Shown: positions 8,879-36,874 of the stretch, in pieces
Position numbering within the stretch: position 1 is the stretch's first letter
Layout: every line of letters starts with the position of its first letter
Notes under the pieces: model-generated
The model's input: the letters and a program-made list of their open reading frames with translations, nothing else
The model's database searches: none
Told to the model about the DNA's origin: nothing
Position numbers and translations under genes: made by a program
Source: Nanobdellota archaeon
GTDB lineage: Archaea > Nanobdellota > Nanobdellia > Pacearchaeales > GW2011-AR1
Assembly: GCA_018816335.1 (NCBI GenBank)
Contig: JAHIVP010000036.1
Location: 1-55,884, forward strand
DNA length: 55,884 bases
Direction of reading: 5' to 3'

Positions 8879-9211
8879 TTAATATAATTTAGAAACACCA
8901 AGATAATAATCCTCTCTAAATTTTATGAATAAATTATTAATTGGAGAGTCTTCATTTTGTTCTAAAGATAATTTTTTATCATTAATCCATTTATTAAACA
9001 ATAGTTTATCATTAGGAGATGAAACATGACATAATTTACATAGAGAAACTAAATTATCAATCTGTGTTAAACCACCAAATTGTTCAGGAGTGATATGATG
9101 AATCTCTAGTCCATCTCCATTATGAAATTTCATTCCACATTTTTGACATTGGTAATTATCTCTTATGATAACTTTTATTCTATAACTTTTATTCAATTGT
9201 TTCTTTTTCAT
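8879..9211 (-). CDS. HNH endonuclease
   Basis: 110 residues. Zinc-binding HNH core: YQCQKCGMKF, LEIHHITPEQFGG, NLVSLCKLCH. The Cys pairs bind structural zinc and the HH is the catalytic region. Small stand-alone HNH proteins like this occur in phages and mobile elements as homing or packaging-associated nucleases. It overlaps the 3' end of the serine recombinase gene by 23 bases, so the two are probably co-translated. Confidence 0.85.
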   Translation of the reverse strand: MKKKQLNKSYRIKVIIRDNYQCQKCGMKFHNGDGLEIHHITPEQFGGLTQIDNLVSLCKLCHVSSPNDKLLFNKWINDKKLSLEQNEDSPINNLFIKFREDYYLGVSKLY

Positions 9212-12519: not shown

Positions 12520-12741
12520 ATGGCAACTAAAGAATGGAAACCAAATCGGATGGAGGATGATTATTGGGTGAAGATAAAAAAAGGTGAGAGATATGATGAG
12601 GTTATGATTACAAATGCAAACGAGATTAGCAAAACAAGAAAAGGATATATTGTTGCTACACATAAATTAAATAGAATAAAATACTTTAAATCAAAATCCC
12701 AAGCTCTTGGATTCGCAAAACAATACATGAGGACACATTAA
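12520..12741 (+). CDS. small protein, QALAFAKQYMR family
   Basis: 73 residues: MATKEWKPN, a variable beta-rich middle and C-terminal FKSKSQALGFAKQYMRTH. A TATA GATTTAAATAAA near 12488 precedes it. First of a local cluster of paralogs at 12520, 13035, 13498 and 13710. Function unknown. Confidence 0.7.
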   Translation: MATKEWKPNRMEDDYWVKIKKGERYDEVMITNANEISKTRKGYIVATHKLNRIKYFKSKSQALGFAKQYMRTH

Positions 12742-12748
12742 TTATTTC

Positions 12749-12780
12749 TGAATTAAAATTCAAAACGAAAGTTTTAAATA
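12749..12780 (+). promoter_or_regulatory. operator plus TATA box for 12802
   Basis: TGAATTAAAATTCA (12749-12762), AAACGAAAG, TTTTAAATA. The ATG is 22 bases after the TATA box. Confidence 0.65.
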
Positions 12781-12801
12781 GTTTGAGATTGTAGGTTAGT
12801 T

Positions 12802-13032
12802 ATGGTAATGAATCAAAAATATAGTGTTGTTACAATGTCAGGAAGAAAGGTTTATACTTTAAGAGGACTATTAAAAAAATACCAAAAAACTGGGACAACT
12901 AATAAAAAGCCAAGTCAATTAAGAAAAGAATTAAGAGGACAACCAATTCTTAAAGGATTACTCGGTCCAATGTGGGACAGAACAACAATTAGATATGAAA
13001 CAGCAGAAGTTTATGAGAGGTTAAGTAGTTAA
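12802..13032 (+). CDS. small basic hypothetical protein
   Basis: 76 residues, basic, no membrane segment: RKVYTLRGLLKKYQKTG then PSQLRKELRGQ. It is followed two bases later by a QALAFAKQYMR family member. It may form a two-gene unit with it, as 7356/7640 do. Not recognised. Confidence 0.6.
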   Translation: MVMNQKYSVVTMSGRKVYTLRGLLKKYQKTGTTNKKPSQLRKELRGQPILKGLLGPMWDRTTIRYETAEVYERLSS

Positions 13033-13034
13033 AA

Positions 13035-13274
13035 ATGGCAACAAAAGATTGGAAAAAGGTTTATGAAGGAAGCTCAGCTATAGCTTATGCTTCCCAAGAT
13101 AGGGAAATTGAAATAACTAAAACAGTATTTGGGAATAGTGGACAATTTGCTCCTAAAAGTAAAGATAAATGGAGTGTCTTTAAATTTGTTAATAATAAAC
13201 CTGTTTCAATTATGAAAGATAAATCAAAATCACAAGCCCTTGCTTATGCAAGACAATACATGAGGACACATTAA
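13035..13274 (+). CDS. small protein, QALAFAKQYMR family
   Basis: 79 residues: MATKDWKKVYEG, middle with WSVFKFVNNKPVS, end KSKSQALAYARQYMRTH. DNA around the last 15 codons is nearly the same as in 12520 (CAATACATGAGGACACATTA), pointing to recent duplication or recombination. Confidence 0.7.
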   Translation: MATKDWKKVYEGSSAIAYASQDREIEITKTVFGNSGQFAPKSKDKWSVFKFVNNKPVSIMKDKSKSQALAYARQYMRTH

Positions 13275-13279
13275 TTAAA

Positions 13280-13495
13280 ATGGCAAGATATAAAATAACC
13301 AAAGGAACACCAGAACCAAGATTTGAATTAACTTATTTAAATAAGGGAAATATTTTTGAGTTGTATCATGAACCCTCTGGGGGGATAGATAAATTTAGTG
13401 AAAAAGAATTGTTAAAATGGGGATTTACTAAAACTCAATTAAATTTTGTTAAGAAAAAAGGAACAACTAATTTTGTTAGTGGAGGAAAGAGTTAA
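13280..13495 (+). CDS. small hypothetical protein
   Basis: 71 residues, basic. FELYHEPSGGIDKFSEKEL then WGFTKTQLNFVKKKG. Sits between two QALAFAKQYMR genes. Not recognised. Confidence 0.6.
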   Translation: MARYKITKGTPEPRFELTYLNKGNIFELYHEPSGGIDKFSEKELLKWGFTKTQLNFVKKKGTTNFVSGGKS

Positions 13496-13497
13496 AA

Positions 13498-13708
13498 ATG
13501 GCAACTAAAGATTGGGAAATAAAGTTTGAAAGTGGTGGACAAGTATTATGGAGAAATAAAAAGAATAATCACCATATACAAATTGCAGATGATTATGGAG
13601 AAGGTTGGTTTTTTAGTGAATTATGGAATCAAAAATAAAAATGAAAAAATATTCAAATCAAAAGCACAAGCTCTTGCATTTGCAAAACAATACATGAGGA
13701 ATAATTAA
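13498..13708 (+). pseudogene. frameshifted QALAFAKQYMR family member
   Basis: From ATG 13498 the reading gives MATKDWEIKFESGG... and stops at 13638 (SELWNQK). One base over, the frame continues KNEKIFKSKAQALAFAKQY to 13708, the family's C-terminus. The two parts together have the family's usual length, so one base was gained (or two lost) in the A-run near 13630. It could be a real mutation, a programmed +1 shift or a sequence error. Confidence 0.65.
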
Positions 13709-13709
13709 A

Positions 13710-13949
13710 ATGGCATGGAAAAAAACAGATAGTCAAAGCTGGAAAAGAAACAATGGAAAAGAACTCTTATATGCTGATGAAGATGTTAGTAACAAGGGAG
13801 AGACTATTTATGTTGTAAGATATGAAGACCAAAATGGAGAAAGTATTATCTTTAAAGATTATAAATGGCAGAAAGCATTAAATTATGCAAAAAAAGTTTC
13901 TAAACAATCAGGATTAATTAAAACACATCCCTCAGTATATAAAATTTAA
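13710..13949 (+). CDS. divergent QALAFAKQYMR-like small protein
   Basis: 79 residues: MAWKKTDSQSWKRN and a beta-rich middle, then YKWQKALNYAKKVSK where the family helix should be, with an extra tail. It overlaps the convergent minus gene by four bases. Assigned to the family by layout more than by sequence. Confidence 0.55.
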   Translation: MAWKKTDSQSWKRNNGKELLYADEDVSNKGETIYVVRYEDQNGESIIFKDYKWQKALNYAKKVSKQSGLIKTHPSVYKI

Positions 13950-14356
13950 GAATCTATTTCTTCAACCATAACCCCCTCCCCCACCCCTTCAATATTCCCA
14001 CCACCTTCACCTTTTACAATTAATGATTCTGGAATATAATAATATCCTTGTTTATCCTTTTTATAAAATTTCTTTTTTCTAAATTCTGTGTTTATTATGA
14101 GGGCATTTTTTCTTGATTTTTTATATAAACCTTTTCCACTTATAAATTCAATAATTGTTTTTCCAATATCTTCATTATTATAACTACAAACAATAGTCAT
14201 TGGATATTTTCCATGTCCACAACAACAGGCAAGAATTCTAAAGTCTCCTTCTTTATGTTTTTTCAATTTATCAAAGATAACATTAAGTCTTTTAACAAAG
14301 TTTTTCATACAAGGGTCTATTCTTCTTGAATTGTTTTTTGGATTAAATTTACACAT
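13946..14356 (-). CDS. small protein sharing its C-terminal tail with the ATPase
   Basis: 136 residues. A Cys/His-containing N-terminal domain (ILACCCGHGKYP; Cys residues could bind metal) is followed by a basic region. The tail reads VKGEGGGNIEGVGEGVMVEE, almost the same as the tail of the ATPase C-half just upstream (VKGEGGGKFRGEGVMVEE). The DNA for both tails is near-identical over about 30 bases. Start overlaps the ATPase stop. Likely acts with the ATPase through the same partner. Confidence 0.65.
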   Translation of the reverse strand: MCKFNPKNNSRRIDPCMKNFVKRLNVIFDKLKKHKEGDFRILACCCGHGKYPMTIVCSYNNEDIGKTIIEFISGKGLYKKSRKNALIINTEFRKKKFYKKDKQGYYYIPESLIVKGEGGGNIEGVGEGVMVEEIDS

Positions 14357-16055
14357 CTTCCTCCCCCCCTTCTATTTCTTCAACCATAACCCCCTCCCCC
14401 CTAAACTTCCCACCACCTTCACCTTTAACAAAATTATCTTCAAAGTCTTCACCTGATTCTTCTTCAACTTTCTCAGCATACTTATCAATATAATTCTTTA
14501 CAGTTTTATGACTTTTAATTCCCATTTCTTTAGCAATAGCTCTATAACTTAGTGAAGCATCTTTCTGCTTCATATCATAACACAACTTCATTATCTGCTC
14601 TTTACTCTTATCTTCTTTCTCCTGAGCTTTCTCCTCTCTTTCAATAATCCCAGACTTAGCAAGAATCTTATCTTGTTTTATTCTATCTTCTTTCTCCTTT
14701 TCTTCTTTATATTGTTTTTCTTTTCTTTTCAATTTCTCTTTAAACTTCAACTCCTCTGCTTTATACATTTCTTTCATCTCACTAATCAAATCAGTATATC
14801 TAACCATCTTCTCACTAAAGTATTTTTTATACATTTCAAAGAAATTATAATGAGGTTCACAGTGCATATGAGATGGAAACCAAAGCCTTATAGCTCCTAA
14901 GTCCTCTTTAATATCTTTTCCAGCAGAAATAAGAAAACTATTTTGATATTCCATATTACTTAACTGTTCTCTTATATCTCTTTTGTAATTTCTAGCTTTA
15001 CTTAATTTCTCAACATCTCTAGCCCCACCTAATTCTCCTATCAAAGTAACAGTAGCAGAATCAGAAACATCCTCATCTATATCAGAAAAAACCTGTGAAT
15101 CTAATATAGAACTCATCCCCCTTCCCATACTTCTCATTGTAGATAAATTCTCTTTAATAGCTTCAGATAAAAACATTTTATAACCTTGAGGCTTAAAAGG
15201 AACTAACTTTCTAACTTCAGGAATAATAATACATAAAGGTCTCTTAGCTAGATTCTTATGTTTAACAATCTGAGAAAACAAACTCAAAACAACAAACTCT
15301 TTAAGTTTATCATCCTCAATCCAATTAGTAACAAAAACATGATAGTGAGAAGGGTCTGTTAAAATCTTACCCCAATCTAATTTTAATCTACAACTATCTT
15401 TAGTAAGAAAAAAATCCCTTTTAAAAGGTTTAAGATAATTAGAAATCTCAGTAACAGACTTAGCTGTTCCTGATTTAACACTCAATCCAAAATTATTCCA
15501 GTCAGGATGAATATCCTTTTTATCTTTTTTACCTCTAACAGCATCTTGAACATGATGTAGTAATCCAAATATTCCATCTTCTTTTCCAATATTTTGAGAA
15601 GTATTAACTAATAATTTAACAGTATCAGTATCCCAAGAAGTTTCTGCTAACATTCCCCATTCCTTTCTTCCCAAGTCTTTTAAACTAAAAGTAAAAAAAT
15701 TCATATCAGGAAGAAAACCATTAGGAATAGAAAATGTAAATGGATGATATAATTTAACCTTTTTTCCTTCAGGTATTTTACCTTGTTTTTTAAGTTCATT
15801 AGTATGATATAATTCATCAGCAGGAAACATAGAATAACCCCATTCAAGTTCAATTTTAGGGTCAGCAATAACAAGAACAATATATCCTAACTTATGTAAT
15901 TCCTCAGCAATAGATTCAGATGCAAGTCCTTTCCCCCATCCTGAATTATGGACTAAAATATTATTAGCAATAAAATTATGATTTTTACTAACAACTAAAT
16001 CAGATGTATCTTCTAGTCCAATTCTTTTTATAGATTTTATCTTTTCAAGTTTCAT
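14349..16055 (-). CDS. split-intein C-half fused to the main part of a HerA/FtsK-like ATPase
   Basis: 568 residues. Residues 1-37 are a C-terminal intein piece: TSDLVVSKNHNFIANNILVH (block F/G) ending His-Asn before Ser38. From Ser38 the host protein continues SGWGKGLASESIAEEL. Joined to the N-half's ...ILGK this rebuilds a P-loop GKSGWGKG, with Gly in the last position as in VirD4-type proteins. Later motifs: PLCIIIPEVRKLVPF (Walker B-like) and MGRGMSSILDSQ. Residues about 430-540 hold a long charged helix and a helix-turn-helix (LSYRAIAKEMGIKSHKTVK). A DNA-pumping ATPase for packaging or conjugation is likely. The predicted spliced product is 561 residues. Confidence 0.85.
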   Translation of the reverse strand: MKLEKIKSIKRIGLEDTSDLVVSKNHNFIANNILVHNSGWGKGLASESIAEELHKLGYIVLVIADPKIELEWGYSMFPADELYHTNELKKQGKIPEGKKVKLYHPFTFSIPNGFLPDMNFFTFSLKDLGRKEWGMLAETSWDTDTVKLLVNTSQNIGKEDGIFGLLHHVQDAVRGKKDKKDIHPDWNNFGLSVKSGTAKSVTEISNYLKPFKRDFFLTKDSCRLKLDWGKILTDPSHYHVFVTNWIEDDKLKEFVVLSLFSQIVKHKNLAKRPLCIIIPEVRKLVPFKPQGYKMFLSEAIKENLSTMRSMGRGMSSILDSQVFSDIDEDVSDSATVTLIGELGGARDVEKLSKARNYKRDIREQLSNMEYQNSFLISAGKDIKEDLGAIRLWFPSHMHCEPHYNFFEMYKKYFSEKMVRYTDLISEMKEMYKAEELKFKEKLKRKEKQYKEEKEKEDRIKQDKILAKSGIIEREEKAQEKEDKSKEQIMKLCYDMKQKDASLSYRAIAKEMGIKSHKTVKNYIDKYAEKVEEESGEDFEDNFVKGEGGGKFRGEGVMVEEIEGGEEDV

Positions 16056-16894
16056 ATTATTTTTTTTAATATGGGAATTAAGGAGTTATTTATTTTATCT
16101 TCATTAAAGTGGTATATTGTATAACCTATATTTTTTAGTTCTTGGTCTCTTAACATTTCTTTACATTCATCACTATGCCAATATGAGCCATCACACTCTA
16201 TAATAACTTTTTTATTAATTAATCTAAAATCTGGAAATTTAAAACCATTCCTTGTTTTTAAGTATTTGTTAAATAGATAATCTTTATTCTCAATAAGACC
16301 AATTATATCTAATATTCTTTTCATTTCTATTTCAATATTAGTTTTTTTATTTCTTCTTAGTTTGGAATTGATTTGTAGTTTTGGGTTTGCTTTGTATAAT
16401 TCACTTTTCTTTTTCCTCACATCATGTCTTTTAGCTGGATTATTTGTAAGATTTCTAGCTGTAAGCTCAGGATTCTTTCTACCTTTCCAATATCCATCAT
16501 AATCCGAAAGTTGATTTCTTTTTATATTAAATTTAATGAGATAATTCCTTATTGTTTCAGTACAAACATTTAAAGATTCAGCAATTTCCCTACATGATTT
16601 ATTTTTATGAATATACTCTTTGATAAAATATTCTTTGGGTAAATCAAGTTTTAAGTTTGCTTTACTAATATTTTTACAATGTTGTTTAGTTCTAATTCTA
16701 CCTTTAAGTGCTTTTGATATTTTATCATTATCTCTAAATTTATCTATTGTTATTTTAAGTTGTTCTTTCCTACCCCTAATAGTAACCCCTTTTCTTAGTA
16801 GAATTTTTTTTACAGTAGTACAACATTTAACATTAATAATTGGACATAATTGCCTTAAACTAAATCCTGATTTATATAATTCAACAATATCCAT
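16052..16894 (-). CDS. Vsr-like homing endonuclease inside the split ATPase gene
   Basis: 280 residues. Two helix-turn-helix segments (residues 5-35 and about 95-115: CREIAESLNVCTETIRNYLI) and a basic linker precede a Vsr/DUF559-type nuclease domain: FPDFRLINKKVIIECDGSYW, then HSD and IGYTIYHFNED. It lies between the intein halves on the same strand; its stop overlaps the C-half start (ATGA). Free-standing Vsr-like endonucleases between split-intein halves are the known 'fractured gene' arrangement (Dassa and colleagues, 2009). It probably cleaves the intact ATPase gene. Confidence 0.8.
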   Translation of the reverse strand: MDIVELYKSGFSLRQLCPIINVKCCTTVKKILLRKGVTIRGRKEQLKITIDKFRDNDKISKALKGRIRTKQHCKNISKANLKLDLPKEYFIKEYIHKNKSCREIAESLNVCTETIRNYLIKFNIKRNQLSDYDGYWKGRKNPELTARNLTNNPAKRHDVRKKKSELYKANPKLQINSKLRRNKKTNIEIEMKRILDIIGLIENKDYLFNKYLKTRNGFKFPDFRLINKKVIIECDGSYWHSDECKEMLRDQELKNIGYTIYHFNEDKINNSLIPILKKII

Positions 16895-16895
16895 T

Positions 16896-17036
16896 TTACT
16901 TAGTTTTTAGCTTTTTTATTATAACATATTCTCCTTCTTTTATGTCACAACTTTTGGGAATGGTAACTAACTTTTGATTTATTTTTTTATTTATCCATAC
17001 TTTCATAATTACTTCTTTAATTCCCTTTGAATCCAT
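16896..17036 (-). CDS. AbrB/SpoVT-like 46-residue protein
   Basis: MKVWINKKINQKLVTIPKSC then DIKEGEYVIIKKL is a swapped-hairpin AbrB pattern. It has its own minus-strand promoter (AAAAGGTTTATATAG, about 17067-17053), 17 bases before its ATG. It stops one base before the endonuclease ATG, so the two form a small unit inside the broken ATPase gene. It may repress its own unit. Confidence 0.65.
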   Translation of the reverse strand: MDSKGIKEVIMKVWINKKINQKLVTIPKSCDIKEGEYVIIKKLKTK

Positions 17037-17052
17037 AATATTATATAATATT

Positions 17053-17067
17053 AGAACTATATAAACC
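17053..17067 (-). promoter_or_regulatory. promoter inside the split ATPase locus
   Basis: Read on the minus strand, CGAAAAGGTTTATATAG is a good BRE/TATA placed after the N-half stop and ahead of the AbrB-like and endonuclease genes. The C-half could thus be made from a different transcript than the N-half. Confidence 0.6.
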
Positions 17068-17073
17068 TTTTCG

Positions 17074-17457
17074 TTATTTTACTAAGATTAAATCACCTTC
17101 TTTTATATGTGATAGTTTTGTTTCTTCAATAGAATTACCTTTTTTAACAAAAAATATATGGTCTTTTGAAGCCTTGATTTTCTTTCCAGATTCAGTTTCA
17201 ATTTCAAAAACTTCTTTTTTACCAGATTTTATTTTAGTTGCTAAATCTATCTCTTTTCTTTTTTTATCCAAGTTGTAGCTATAAACACTAAATGTTTGAT
17301 TATGGTTTAAATCACCAATTTTCAATTTTCCTTTTGGTGTATCTATCTGGCTATCATTAGAGATACACTTACCTAAAATTAAATATTGCTCATTTCTTAC
17401 TTTTCCATATTCATCTTTTAAAGAGAAGTAGGTATGGGTTTCAGTTATTAATCTCAT
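17074..17457 (-). CDS. ATPase N-terminal exon fused to split-intein N-half
   Basis: 127 residues. Residues 1-30 are host protein ending QYLILGK. Cys31 starts an intein: CISNDSQIDTPKGKLKIGDL (block A) and KKIKASKDHIFFV (block B, with the conserved His). It ends in IKEGDLILVK. No C-terminal splice region is present; that part is encoded at 16055. The junction is exactly inside the P-loop, a favoured intein site. Start overlaps the Hjc-like gene by 17 bases. Confidence 0.88.
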   Translation of the reverse strand: MRLITETHTYFSLKDEYGKVRNEQYLILGKCISNDSQIDTPKGKLKIGDLNHNQTFSVYSYNLDKKRKEIDLATKIKSGKKEVFEIETESGKKIKASKDHIFFVKKGNSIEETKLSHIKEGDLILVK

Positions 17458-17776
17458 GTGGATGATATAAATATTTAGTTATTTTTACTTTAGGTTTTCC
17501 CCTTCCTAGATATTTATAAATCCATAACTCAGCCATAATCCCTTGAATCTTAGCAAATGTTCTAATCCTTTCAAATTGCTCTAACTCTCTTTTATTAGGA
17601 TAATAATTCTTTTGGTGACACTCTTTTACTTCAACTACTTTAATAACTTCCCCACAACATATAACCATAAAGTCAGCTCCTTGAGAACCAATAGCAATCT
17701 TAGTAACATTATCTTTTCCAAACTCATTTATCAGTTGATGTTTTGCAATTAACTCTGAAGCATATCCTTTTCTCAT
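17441..17776 (-). CDS. Hjc-like PD-(D/E)XK nuclease
   Basis: 111 residues, near the length of archaeal Holliday-junction resolvases. Motifs: RKGYASELIAKHQL (catalytic Glu), GSQGADFMVI (Asp) and KVVEVKECHQKNYYPNK (E-X-K), then a basic C-terminus. Likely resolves branched DNA in replication or packaging. Translation overlaps the ATPase N-half and the gene upstream. Confidence 0.75.
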   Translation of the reverse strand: MRKGYASELIAKHQLINEFGKDNVTKIAIGSQGADFMVICCGEVIKVVEVKECHQKNYYPNKRELEQFERIRTFAKIQGIMAELWIYKYLGRGKPKVKITKYLYHPHEINN

Positions 17777-19056: not shown

Positions 19057-19197
19057 TTACTGAACCTCCTTTTCATCATATATTTTTATTTGATTTAAAA
19101 TCATAGATAATAAATTAATACAACAATCTTTTCTGCAAATCTCTTTATGTTTTTCTAATAATTTAATTATTTCTTCTTTTTTTAATTTTGTTTCCAT
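19057..19197 (-). CDS. small peptide with Cys motif
   Basis: 46 residues, helical, containing EICRKDCCINLL. Its end holds the AGGAGGT site used by the next gene. Overlaps the HNH gene's end by 16 bases. Not recognised. Confidence 0.5.
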   Translation of the reverse strand: METKLKKEEIIKLLEKHKEICRKDCCINLLSMILNQIKIYDEKEVQ

Positions 19198-19568
19198 TTT
19201 ATATTCCTATTTATATGTTCCTCGCAGTAAGGATGCCAACTTTCAAATTTACCATTTACTACCTCAATAAATTCATCAGGAATCTTTTTCATACATTCCC
19301 AACAAGTAATATTATGAACTAATTTATGTGGATGAACATATCTTTTTATTGTAGTTGTACTATACTTAGAGCCATCACCTAACTTTGGTCTCCAATGATT
19401 AATTCCATGAACATCATCATGGCATTTTCTACATAAAACTTGAAGATTATTGCGTTTCCCATTTGCTATCCCATCTTTATGATGAACAGTCAAGTGGTAT
19501 TGAATTCCACATTTACTACAAAGATGCTTATCCTTAGGTATCTTACCATATTTATTTGTAATAACCAT
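19182..19568 (-). CDS. HNH endonuclease
   Basis: About 128 residues from ATG 19568 (MVITNKYGKIPKDKH). HNH core: HLCSKCGIQYHLTVHHKDG, NNLQVLCRKCHDDVH. A second Cys pair (CWECM...C) lies nearer the C-terminus. An earlier reading to 19637 would overlap the upstream gene in full, so the ATG one base after that gene's stop is chosen. Second HNH protein in the window; possibly packaging-related or a mobile nuclease. Confidence 0.8.
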   Translation of the reverse strand: MVITNKYGKIPKDKHLCSKCGIQYHLTVHHKDGIANGKRNNLQVLCRKCHDDVHGINHWRPKLGDGSKYSTTTIKRYVHPHKLVHNITCWECMKKIPDEFIEVVNGKFESWHPYCEEHINRNIKWKQN

Positions 19569-19569
19569 T

Positions 19570-19809
19570 TTATAAACAACTCTCCCCAACATGAACACCA
19601 TACTCCACCATTTCTTCTCTACAATATTCATTAGCAAATCTAATAGCTTCTTGTAGTGTGCTAAATCTTTTTAACTTAGTTTCTTCACTAGGGATAAAAT
19701 TATTATCAACACAATAATGAAGATGAACTTCAAACTGATTATTCTTCCATTCCTTATTTCTTAAAATTATTAATTGATTATTTGATGACATTTTATTCTG
19801 GGTATTCAT
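19570..19809 (-). CDS. small protein, distant QALAFAKQYMR-like helix
   Basis: 79 residues (or 73 from codon 7). FSTLQEAIRFANEYCREE near residues 48-66 has the same spacing as the KSQALAFAKQYMR helix of the plus-strand family. Similarity is weak. Overlaps the upstream gene. Confidence 0.55.
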   Translation of the reverse strand: MNTQNKMSSNNQLIILRNKEWKNNQFEVHLHYCVDNNFIPSEETKLKRFSTLQEAIRFANEYCREEMVEYGVHVGESCL

Positions 19810-36016: not shown

Positions 36017-36874
36017 ATGTTTAAAAAAGGAAATTGTTTTTGGAAGTTAAGAAAAACTTTTAAACACTCAAATAAAACAAAGAAAAAACTAAGTAATTCC
36101 CGTATTAATGGAATTATTGATGGACACATAATTCCATGGAACAAGGGATTAACAATGAAAATGGATAAAAGGGTTAAAAAAATTGCAGAAATGTCCATTT
36201 TTCAGAAAGGTCATAAATTGAATATTGGTAGGATTCATTCTAAAGAAACAATAGAAAAAATGAGAGTTTCTCAGAAGGGTATAAAGAAAAAACCACACAC
36301 TAAAGAATGGAAAATTAATCATAGTATTAGAATGAAAGGAATCTTTAATCCAATGTATGGAAAGAATCACACAAAAAAGACTAAAATAAAAATAAGTAAT
36401 AGTTTGAAAGGTAATCCTTCTCCAATGAAAGGAAAAATTCGTATGGACATTAGAGGAAGAAATAATCCTATGGCAAATCAAAAAATAAGACTAAAGGCAA
36501 TTAAGAGGTCATTATTAGCACAGCAATTAAAACCATCAAAACCAGAAAGAGAAATGATAAAATTAATAGAAATGAATAATCTCAATTTTGATTATGTTGG
36601 GGATGGTAAATTAATTATTGGAGGATTTAATCCAGACTTTATTTCTAAAGATAATAAAAAAATTATAGAAATTTTTAGTATCTATTGGCATAAACTAGCA
36701 AAGATAAAAGAAAGAGATAAGAGAAGATTACAAACATATTTTAATAAAGGGTTTAGAACTTTAATTTTATGGAGTGATGAATTTGATAATCCTAATAATA
36801 TACTCAAAAAGGTTATTAATTTTAATTCGTCTAAATTTTGGGGAACACAAGGCAATTCGCATATATCAAAATGA
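36017..36874 (+). CDS. NUMOD3/Vsr-like free-standing homing endonuclease
   Basis: 285 residues. NUMOD3-type DNA-binding repeats (HSKETIEKMRVSQKG, TKIKISNSLKGNPSPMKGK) precede a Vsr-like nuclease: PEREMIKLIE, NPDFISKDNKKIIEIFSIYW with H next, and RTLILWSDEFDN. Same nuclease class as the enzyme at 16052 but with different DNA-binding modules. It likely inserted between neighbouring genes without breaking one. Confidence 0.75.
   Translation: MFKKGNCFWKLRKTFKHSNKTKKKLSNSRINGIIDGHIIPWNKGLTMKMDKRVKKIAEMSIFQKGHKLNIGRIHSKETIEKMRVSQKGIKKKPHTKEWKINHSIRMKGIFNPMYGKNHTKKTKIKISNSLKGNPSPMKGKIRMDIRGRNNPMANQKIRLKAIKRSLLAQQLKPSKPEREMIKLIEMNNLNFDYVGDGKLIIGGFNPDFISKDNKKIIEIFSIYWHKLAKIKERDKRRLQTYFNKGFRTLILWSDEFDNPNNILKKVINFNSSKFWGTQGNSHISK

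Follow-up and report, generated by a model that had tools for sequence, protein, structure and literature searches.

Known systems and the locus analysed

Controller (C) proteins of restriction-modification systems are helix-turn-helix proteins that are paired with restriction enzymes and methyltransferases. Among homing endonucleases, I-TevI of phage T4 represses its own promoter, where the operator resembles its homing site, and seven free-standing T4 endonuclease genes are apparently promoter-less cassettes (PMC2988022). Fractured genes, in which split inteins occur together with Vsr-like (EDxHD) homing endonucleases, were described by Dassa et al. 2009, as related in papers that cite that work (PMC7090010, PMC12350094, PMC10448857), one of which is a phage paper that itself describes EDxHD/Vsr homing endonucleases (PMC12350094). 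A locus of this kind is considered here, in a stretch of 55,884 nucleotides (hereafter, the window; contig JAHIVP010000036.1 of assembly GCA_018816335.1) from a mobile element of a Nanobdellota (DPANN) archaeon. In this locus, an ATPase gene is interrupted within its P-loop by a predicted split intein, and a promoter, a palindrome, a 46-residue AbrB-like gene and a free-standing endonuclease gene lie between the two halves. The fractured-gene arrangement is of a known kind; what is new is the unit of promoter, palindrome and AbrB-like gene, which precedes several kinds of homing endonuclease.

Layout of the fractured gene

All parts of the broken gene lie on the minus strand and are given below in the direction of reading.

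17368 to 17457, minus strand: N-extein, 30 residues (MRLITETHTYFSLKDEYGKVRNEQYLILGK) ending in LILGK, alignable with the beginning of the unbroken homologue
17074 to 17367, minus strand: N-terminal intein fragment (IntN), 97 residues from Cys1 and a stop codon (TIGR01445, E = 8e-12; PF14890, E = 5.9e-11)
17058 to 17065, minus strand: archaeal TATA box TTTATATA, with its first base 29 nt 5' of the ATG of the 46-residue gene
17037 to 17052, either strand: perfect 16-bp palindrome AATATTATATAATATT, the proposed operator, between TATA box and start codon
16896 to 17036, minus strand: small AbrB-like gene, 46 residues, the proposed autorepressor (homologues, alignment, and TIGR01439 at 0.0017 for two members)
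16052 to 16894, minus strand: free-standing Vsr-like endonuclease, 280 residues, with helix-turn-helix regions (PF04480 DUF559, 3.5e-8)
about 16058 to 16369, minus strand: nuclease domain of that endonuclease, residues 176-279
15945 to 16055, minus strand: C-terminal intein fragment (IntC), 37 residues ending in His-Asn (TIGR01443, above the cut-off; PF14890, 2.7e-6)
14349 to 15944, minus strand: C-extein from Ser+1, with the remainder of Walker A, the ATPase body and a C-terminal helix-turn-helix (39% identity to the unbroken homologue, L015/L004)

The insert that splits the ATPase gene measures 1,423 bp (15945-17367) and leaves an N-half gene at 17074-17457, the start of which overlaps the 3' end of the upstream gene 17441-17776, and a C-half gene at 14349-16055. 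The endonuclease module occupies the site at which inteins usually carry their endonuclease domain, and so divides the intein together with the gene that hosts it. The original prediction, made from this sequence without database searches, had proposed both splice junctions, a TATA box belonging to the small gene and a Vsr-like endonuclease of 280 residues, and all of these are supported by the profile matches and promoter spacing reported here.

The match of the endonuclease to DUF559 lies above the curated cut-off, while the Vsr models TIGR00632 (9.6e-7) and PF03852 (9.5e-4) match below theirs. Its nuclease core, PDF...IECDGSYWH, is conserved in relatives as PDF...IECDGxYWH, and its helix-turn-helix regions give weak matches to several families of that type. 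Close relatives of the endonuclease were not found in the viral contigs, and the phage collection gave no match to it.

A TATA box at such a spacing is a signature of archaeal leaderless transcripts. Eleven genes of the window, the 46-residue gene among them, have a TTTAWAWA motif that begins exactly 29 nt 5' of the start codon, whereas 0.4% of random positions have one at 28-31 nt. The start codons concerned are as follows.

Plus strand: 12140, 12520, 12802, 29394, 41696, 45210, 51010, 54131
Minus strand: 12052, 17036, 30350

By its spacing, which agrees with that of the ten other genes, the predicted TATA box of the 46-residue gene is judged to be real, and the same signature could be used to map the transcription units of the window. 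The starts at 17457, 17776, 18066 and 18287 have no TATA box with 7 or 8 matches, and the N-half is therefore probably expressed from further upstream. Moreover, the endonuclease gene starts directly behind the 46-residue gene and the start codon of the C-half overlaps the endonuclease stop codon (ATGA), so that the 46-residue gene, the endonuclease and the C-half appear to form one unit.

The split intein and its host ATPase

IntN begins with CISNDSQI..., at Cys31 of the N-half and directly after LILGK of the host, and its TIGR01445 match covers the whole model and exceeds the cut-off. IntC ends in NILVHN, followed by the Ser (+1) of SGWGKG. When the two fragments are joined, the match to PF14890 reaches 5e-16 and the intein matches solved inteins along its length, the best of them being those of DnaB, DnaE, gp41-1 (E = 1.6e-9) and DnaX, with NrdJ-1 matched at 1.9e-6. 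Of the features of a class-1 split intein, the N-terminal Cys and splicing region are present on one side and the C-terminal His-Asn and Ser+1 on the other. The identification of the intein rests on profile statistics and not on visual reading, and it places a predicted class-1 intein directly after the second residue of the P-loop (GK|SGWGKG) in the ATPase gene. In the archaeon's own genome, the sole other relative of the intein found with the C-half query lies in a different gene (L002, 25-2154, G000:C39), which by eye resembles a gene for a peptide chain release factor and in which the intein is in one piece and contains an endonuclease. The matches of the same query in viral contigs were mostly C-terminal ends of inteins in other genes, such as a DNA polymerase III alpha-type protein (L007), and were set aside; the intein search of the phage collection returned ordinary phage inteins only.

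The joined host parts make up a protein of 561 residues in which the P-loop GKSGWGKG is restored, as had been anticipated, and in a four-protein alignment the Ser+1 of the intein aligns with a Ser or Thr of the P-loop in the relatives. An unbroken counterpart in a related element, which the original prediction had recommended seeking, was found on contig JAHIWS010000025.1 (L015/L004, genome G007), a Nanoarchaeota metagenome-assembled genome of the phylum Nanobdellota; this orthologue has 562 residues and is 39% identical to the joined protein from end to end. More distant unbroken homologues occur in G237 and G305, and, as L015/L004, L017 and L018 are all unbroken at the intein site, the host gene is contiguous in the relatives. 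When the translations are compared by eye, several products encoded on the L015 contig resemble those of window genes, namely the gene directly upstream of the ATPase, a Lys/Arg-rich protein of 171 residues, a serine recombinase and a protein of 176 residues, which suggests that both contigs carry elements of one kind. In the archaeon's own genome, which is 82% complete, no copy of the ATPase was found besides the two halves; an intact second copy had been named beforehand as an observation that would speak against the reading.

The host protein had been described as a packaging or transfer-type ATPase. This assignment was not confirmed, as profile searches gave the window ATPase no match to a HerA/FtsK-type packaging or transfer family. 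The protein belongs to a family of P-loop NTPases that end in a C-terminal helix-turn-helix. Walker B reads VVLDE or IVLDE in two homologues, and in the homologue L018 the AAA model is matched at 2.8e-7 and FtsK at just 0.043. Close relatives of the ATPase were not found among the viral contigs. A near-identical tail, VKGEGGG...GEGVMVEEI, ends both the ATPase (14349-14420) and its downstream neighbour of 136 residues (13946-14030), both on the minus strand, and the unbroken homologue has a similar C-terminal end, GAGVMIEEIED; the tail common to the ATPase and its neighbour is possibly a docking or sorting tail.

The small gene and the palindrome

The original prediction had regarded the internal promoter and the AbrB-like gene as an addition to the fractured gene. 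Both are present, but the small gene is not peculiar to it and is found repeatedly alongside homing endonucleases. When 186 relatives were searched with the 46-residue protein, homologues of 40-47 residues were found, four of which (L047 to L050) have an endonuclease gene immediately behind them. The aligned small proteins, of 37-47 residues, contain almost nothing outside the presumed DNA-binding core. In all, the small gene directly precedes an endonuclease gene at eight distinct loci, with three nuclease types (Vsr-like, HNH-type and LAGLIDADG).

Window locus: small gene, then Vsr-like endonuclease, 280 residues
L047 (G033): small gene, then Vsr-like endonuclease, 225 residues
L050 (G043): small gene, then Vsr-like endonuclease, 351 residues
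L048 (G028:C14): small gene, then HNH-type endonuclease, 269 residues
L049 (G028:C11): small gene, then LAGLIDADG_1 endonuclease, 179 residues
L058 (G364): small gene, then LAGLIDADG_3 protein, 474 residues (from profile searches)
L073 (IMGVR_UViG_3300022868_000035, with two near-identical contigs): small gene, then HNH protein, 216 residues (from profile searches)
L082 (IMGVR_UViG_3300035701_000031): small gene, then NUMOD3 protein with a Vsr-like end, 321 residues (from the TATA and palindrome pattern)

The HNH-type call at L048 is based on a visible motif and on similarity to a protein of 283 residues encoded at L015, and this endonuclease has no match in Pfam or PHROGs. The end of the L082 endonuclease resembles the window's other Vsr-like protein, encoded at 36017-36874. 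A further candidate, G024:C42 (E = 0.009), was left out of the count, being a longer antitoxin-like gene ahead of a PIN-like gene. At L058 (G364:C21), the module sits behind a gene that by eye resembles one for a ribonuclease Z-type hydrolase, and the promoter-palindrome sequence is the same as that of the window.

The window contains three perfect 16-bp palindromes, and AATATTATATAATATT alone adjoins a start codon. A perfect palindrome stands beside the start codon at six of the eight AbrB-endonuclease loci, immediately 5' of it in the window, L058, L048, L049 and L082, and 3 nt 5' of the annotated start at L073/L094. It exists in two versions, AATATTATATAATATT and AATATTAATTAATATT, which differ by a symmetric double change. 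With two mismatches allowed, the bare palindrome is not rare in AT-rich DNA and, thus, the weight lies on its position and recurrence. In 368 genomes, the combined TATA and palindrome pattern gave six matches, four of which are AbrB-endonuclease promoters and two (L113, L114) lie at places without an AbrB gene, and a reversed control pattern gave three. Used without protein information, this pattern also found the L082 locus in the viral contigs, where a broader palindrome pattern had L082 as its sole AbrB gene; a palindrome before an ATG is therefore not diagnostic by itself.

Proposed mechanism and alternative explanations

The sequence shows how the parts are laid out, that the splice-site residues are intact, that an unbroken relative exists, that a leaderless-type promoter and a palindrome are present, and that the small gene recurs before other endonucleases. 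The interpretation that unites these findings, a split-intein ATPase gene carrying a promoter-bearing homing-endonuclease module of two genes, and with it trans-splicing, homing and autorepression, is considered probable. According to this interpretation, the upstream operon would be the source of the translated N-half and the AbrB-endonuclease transcript that of the C-half, which is coupled to it through the overlapping stop and start codons, and trans-splicing of the two halves would yield the ATPase of 561 residues. The endonuclease would cut intein-less alleles, into which the 1,423-bp cassette would then be copied, while a dimer of the AbrB-like protein, bound to the palindrome over the transcription start, would repress its own operon and keep the endonuclease low once the cassette is established. 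The same control unit would be joined to other nuclease families elsewhere and, as a side effect here, half of the element's ATPase would come under the promoter of its parasite.

In its general form, this proposal is held with less assurance, although it is slightly favoured: the leaderless TATA promoter, the 16-bp palindromic operator and the AbrB-like mini-gene may form a portable unit, common to unrelated homing endonucleases of DPANN archaea and their viruses, that would be the counterpart of the controller genes of restriction-modification systems and that here came to lie in a gene through an intein, placing half of an ATPase under the parasite's repressor.

Several observations weigh against these interpretations. 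Stand-alone copies of the small gene carry an endonuclease at eight of ten distinct loci, and those at L076 and in G086 (two copies) do not; L050 and L047 lack a perfect palindrome; and the AlphaFold models of the unbroken ATPase (predicted local distance difference test, pLDDT, 39) and of the endonuclease (pLDDT 47) are too low in confidence to use. In addition, several DPANN chromosomes encode cytidylyltransferase-like proteins to which a related domain is fused (L034, 1492-2046, G000:C28; L059-L069), a context in which DNA binding is not obvious. The family of the small protein is a further point of this kind: the open reading frame of 46 residues named in the original prediction is present (16896-17036), but the AbrB assignment is weak, as Pfam gave no AbrB-type match at E<=10 and TIGR01439 matched marginally, at E = 0.0017, two of nine members. 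The archaeal AbrB structures 5itm and 2l66 were matched at E of about 0.2 only, and designed double-psi barrels gave slightly better matches, by way of the short segment GDYVEVKKV. Modest evidence, from these comparisons, thus points to an AbrB-like fold.

This uncertain family assignment lends some weight to the view that the locus is an ordinary fractured gene, as in Dassa et al. 2009, in which the 46-residue gene is a passenger without a role, and the anatomy does match the description of a split intein with a free-standing Vsr-like endonuclease. Nevertheless, a gene that precedes three nuclease types at eight loci, mostly together with one and the same unit of promoter and palindrome, is no accidental passenger, and this explanation seems unlikely.

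AbrB/MazE-type proteins are frequently antitoxins, and the MazE/PemI model is matched weakly by one member of the small-protein family (0.041) and by one fusion protein. The pair could then be toxin-antitoxin-like, with the small protein neutralizing the nuclease by direct binding and so stabilizing the cassette. However, this small protein accompanies nucleases that are unrelated to one another and, as it consists of hardly more than the presumed DNA-binding core, it has no obvious toxin-binding tail, which makes such a pair improbable.

A decaying gene, in which the insertion destroyed the ATPase and the halves no longer splice, is thought just as improbable. In its favour, the arrangement comes from one genome only, and block B of the intein departs from the canonical form: of the blocks A and B originally proposed, Cys31 and the N-terminal region are confirmed, while block B reads SKDH, in which the His is kept and Ser replaces the Thr of TxxH. 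On the other side, the open reading frames are all open, the remaining splice residues are present, starts and stops are tightly coupled, no other copy of the ATPase was found in the genome, and the C-half aligns end to end with an intact homologue at 39% identity. Finally, that the halves work as separate subunits with the intein parts as remnants has nothing specific in its favour and is highly implausible, since the break lies inside the P-loop itself and two chains could hardly rebuild a P-loop without ligation.

If the preferred interpretation, a split intein with a self-regulated homing module, is right, it would bear on matters beyond this locus. Natural split inteins are valued protein-joining tools, few of them have been described from archaeal elements, and their origin is debated; a promoter-bearing module at the endonuclease site of an intein fits an origin of split inteins through invasion by free-standing endonuclease genes. 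Moreover, with the recurrent regulator-operator unit, the question of what keeps free-standing homing endonucleases from damaging the genome that they inhabit becomes testable.

Other features of the element

Two HNH endonuclease genes lie in the window, at 8879-9211 and 19182-19637, both on the minus strand. The gene at 36017-36874, on the plus strand, encodes a second free-standing endonuclease, which carries NUMOD3 repeats (2.8e-11), ends in a DUF559/Vsr-like part and resembles the endonuclease of L082 (1e-14); no AbrB-like gene is seen upstream of it. With two HNH and two Vsr-like genes, the element is rich in possible homing endonucleases. On the plus strand, several small genes follow one another in 12520-13949, each encoding about 46-79 residues, whose products start alike (MATKDWK...) and end alike (KSQALAFAKQYMRTH) and which are apparently tandem paralogues. 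No terminal repeat was seen on the contig, and circularity is thus unsupported.

Comparison with known systems

In the literature searched, neither a pairing of AbrB-like proteins with homing endonucleases nor a separate regulator common to unrelated nucleases was found. The split inteins gp41-1 and NrdJ-1 have a similar split position and similar fragment sizes, but their identity to the present intein is low, and here the intein belongs to an archaeal element and a different host gene. Restriction-modification controller proteins share with the proposed unit the small autoregulator gene directly before a nuclease gene and the regulation of a mobile nuclease; they differ in being helix-turn-helix proteins of restriction-modification systems, whereas an AbrB-like protein accompanies homing endonucleases here. 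By the descriptions in citing papers, the fractured genes of Dassa et al. 2009 are likewise broken where inteins are canonically split, with separate genes for IntN and IntC and a free-standing Vsr-like endonuclease between them; here, the setting is an element of a DPANN archaeon, the host site is the P-loop of an ATPase, and a leaderless promoter of its own, a palindrome and an AbrB-like gene precede the endonuclease. The nearest precedent for the proposed repression of a homing endonuclease is, by analogy, I-TevI, which is likewise held low by repression at its own promoter; in that case the endonuclease itself is the repressor, whereas here a separate small protein, common to several nuclease families, is proposed to take this role.

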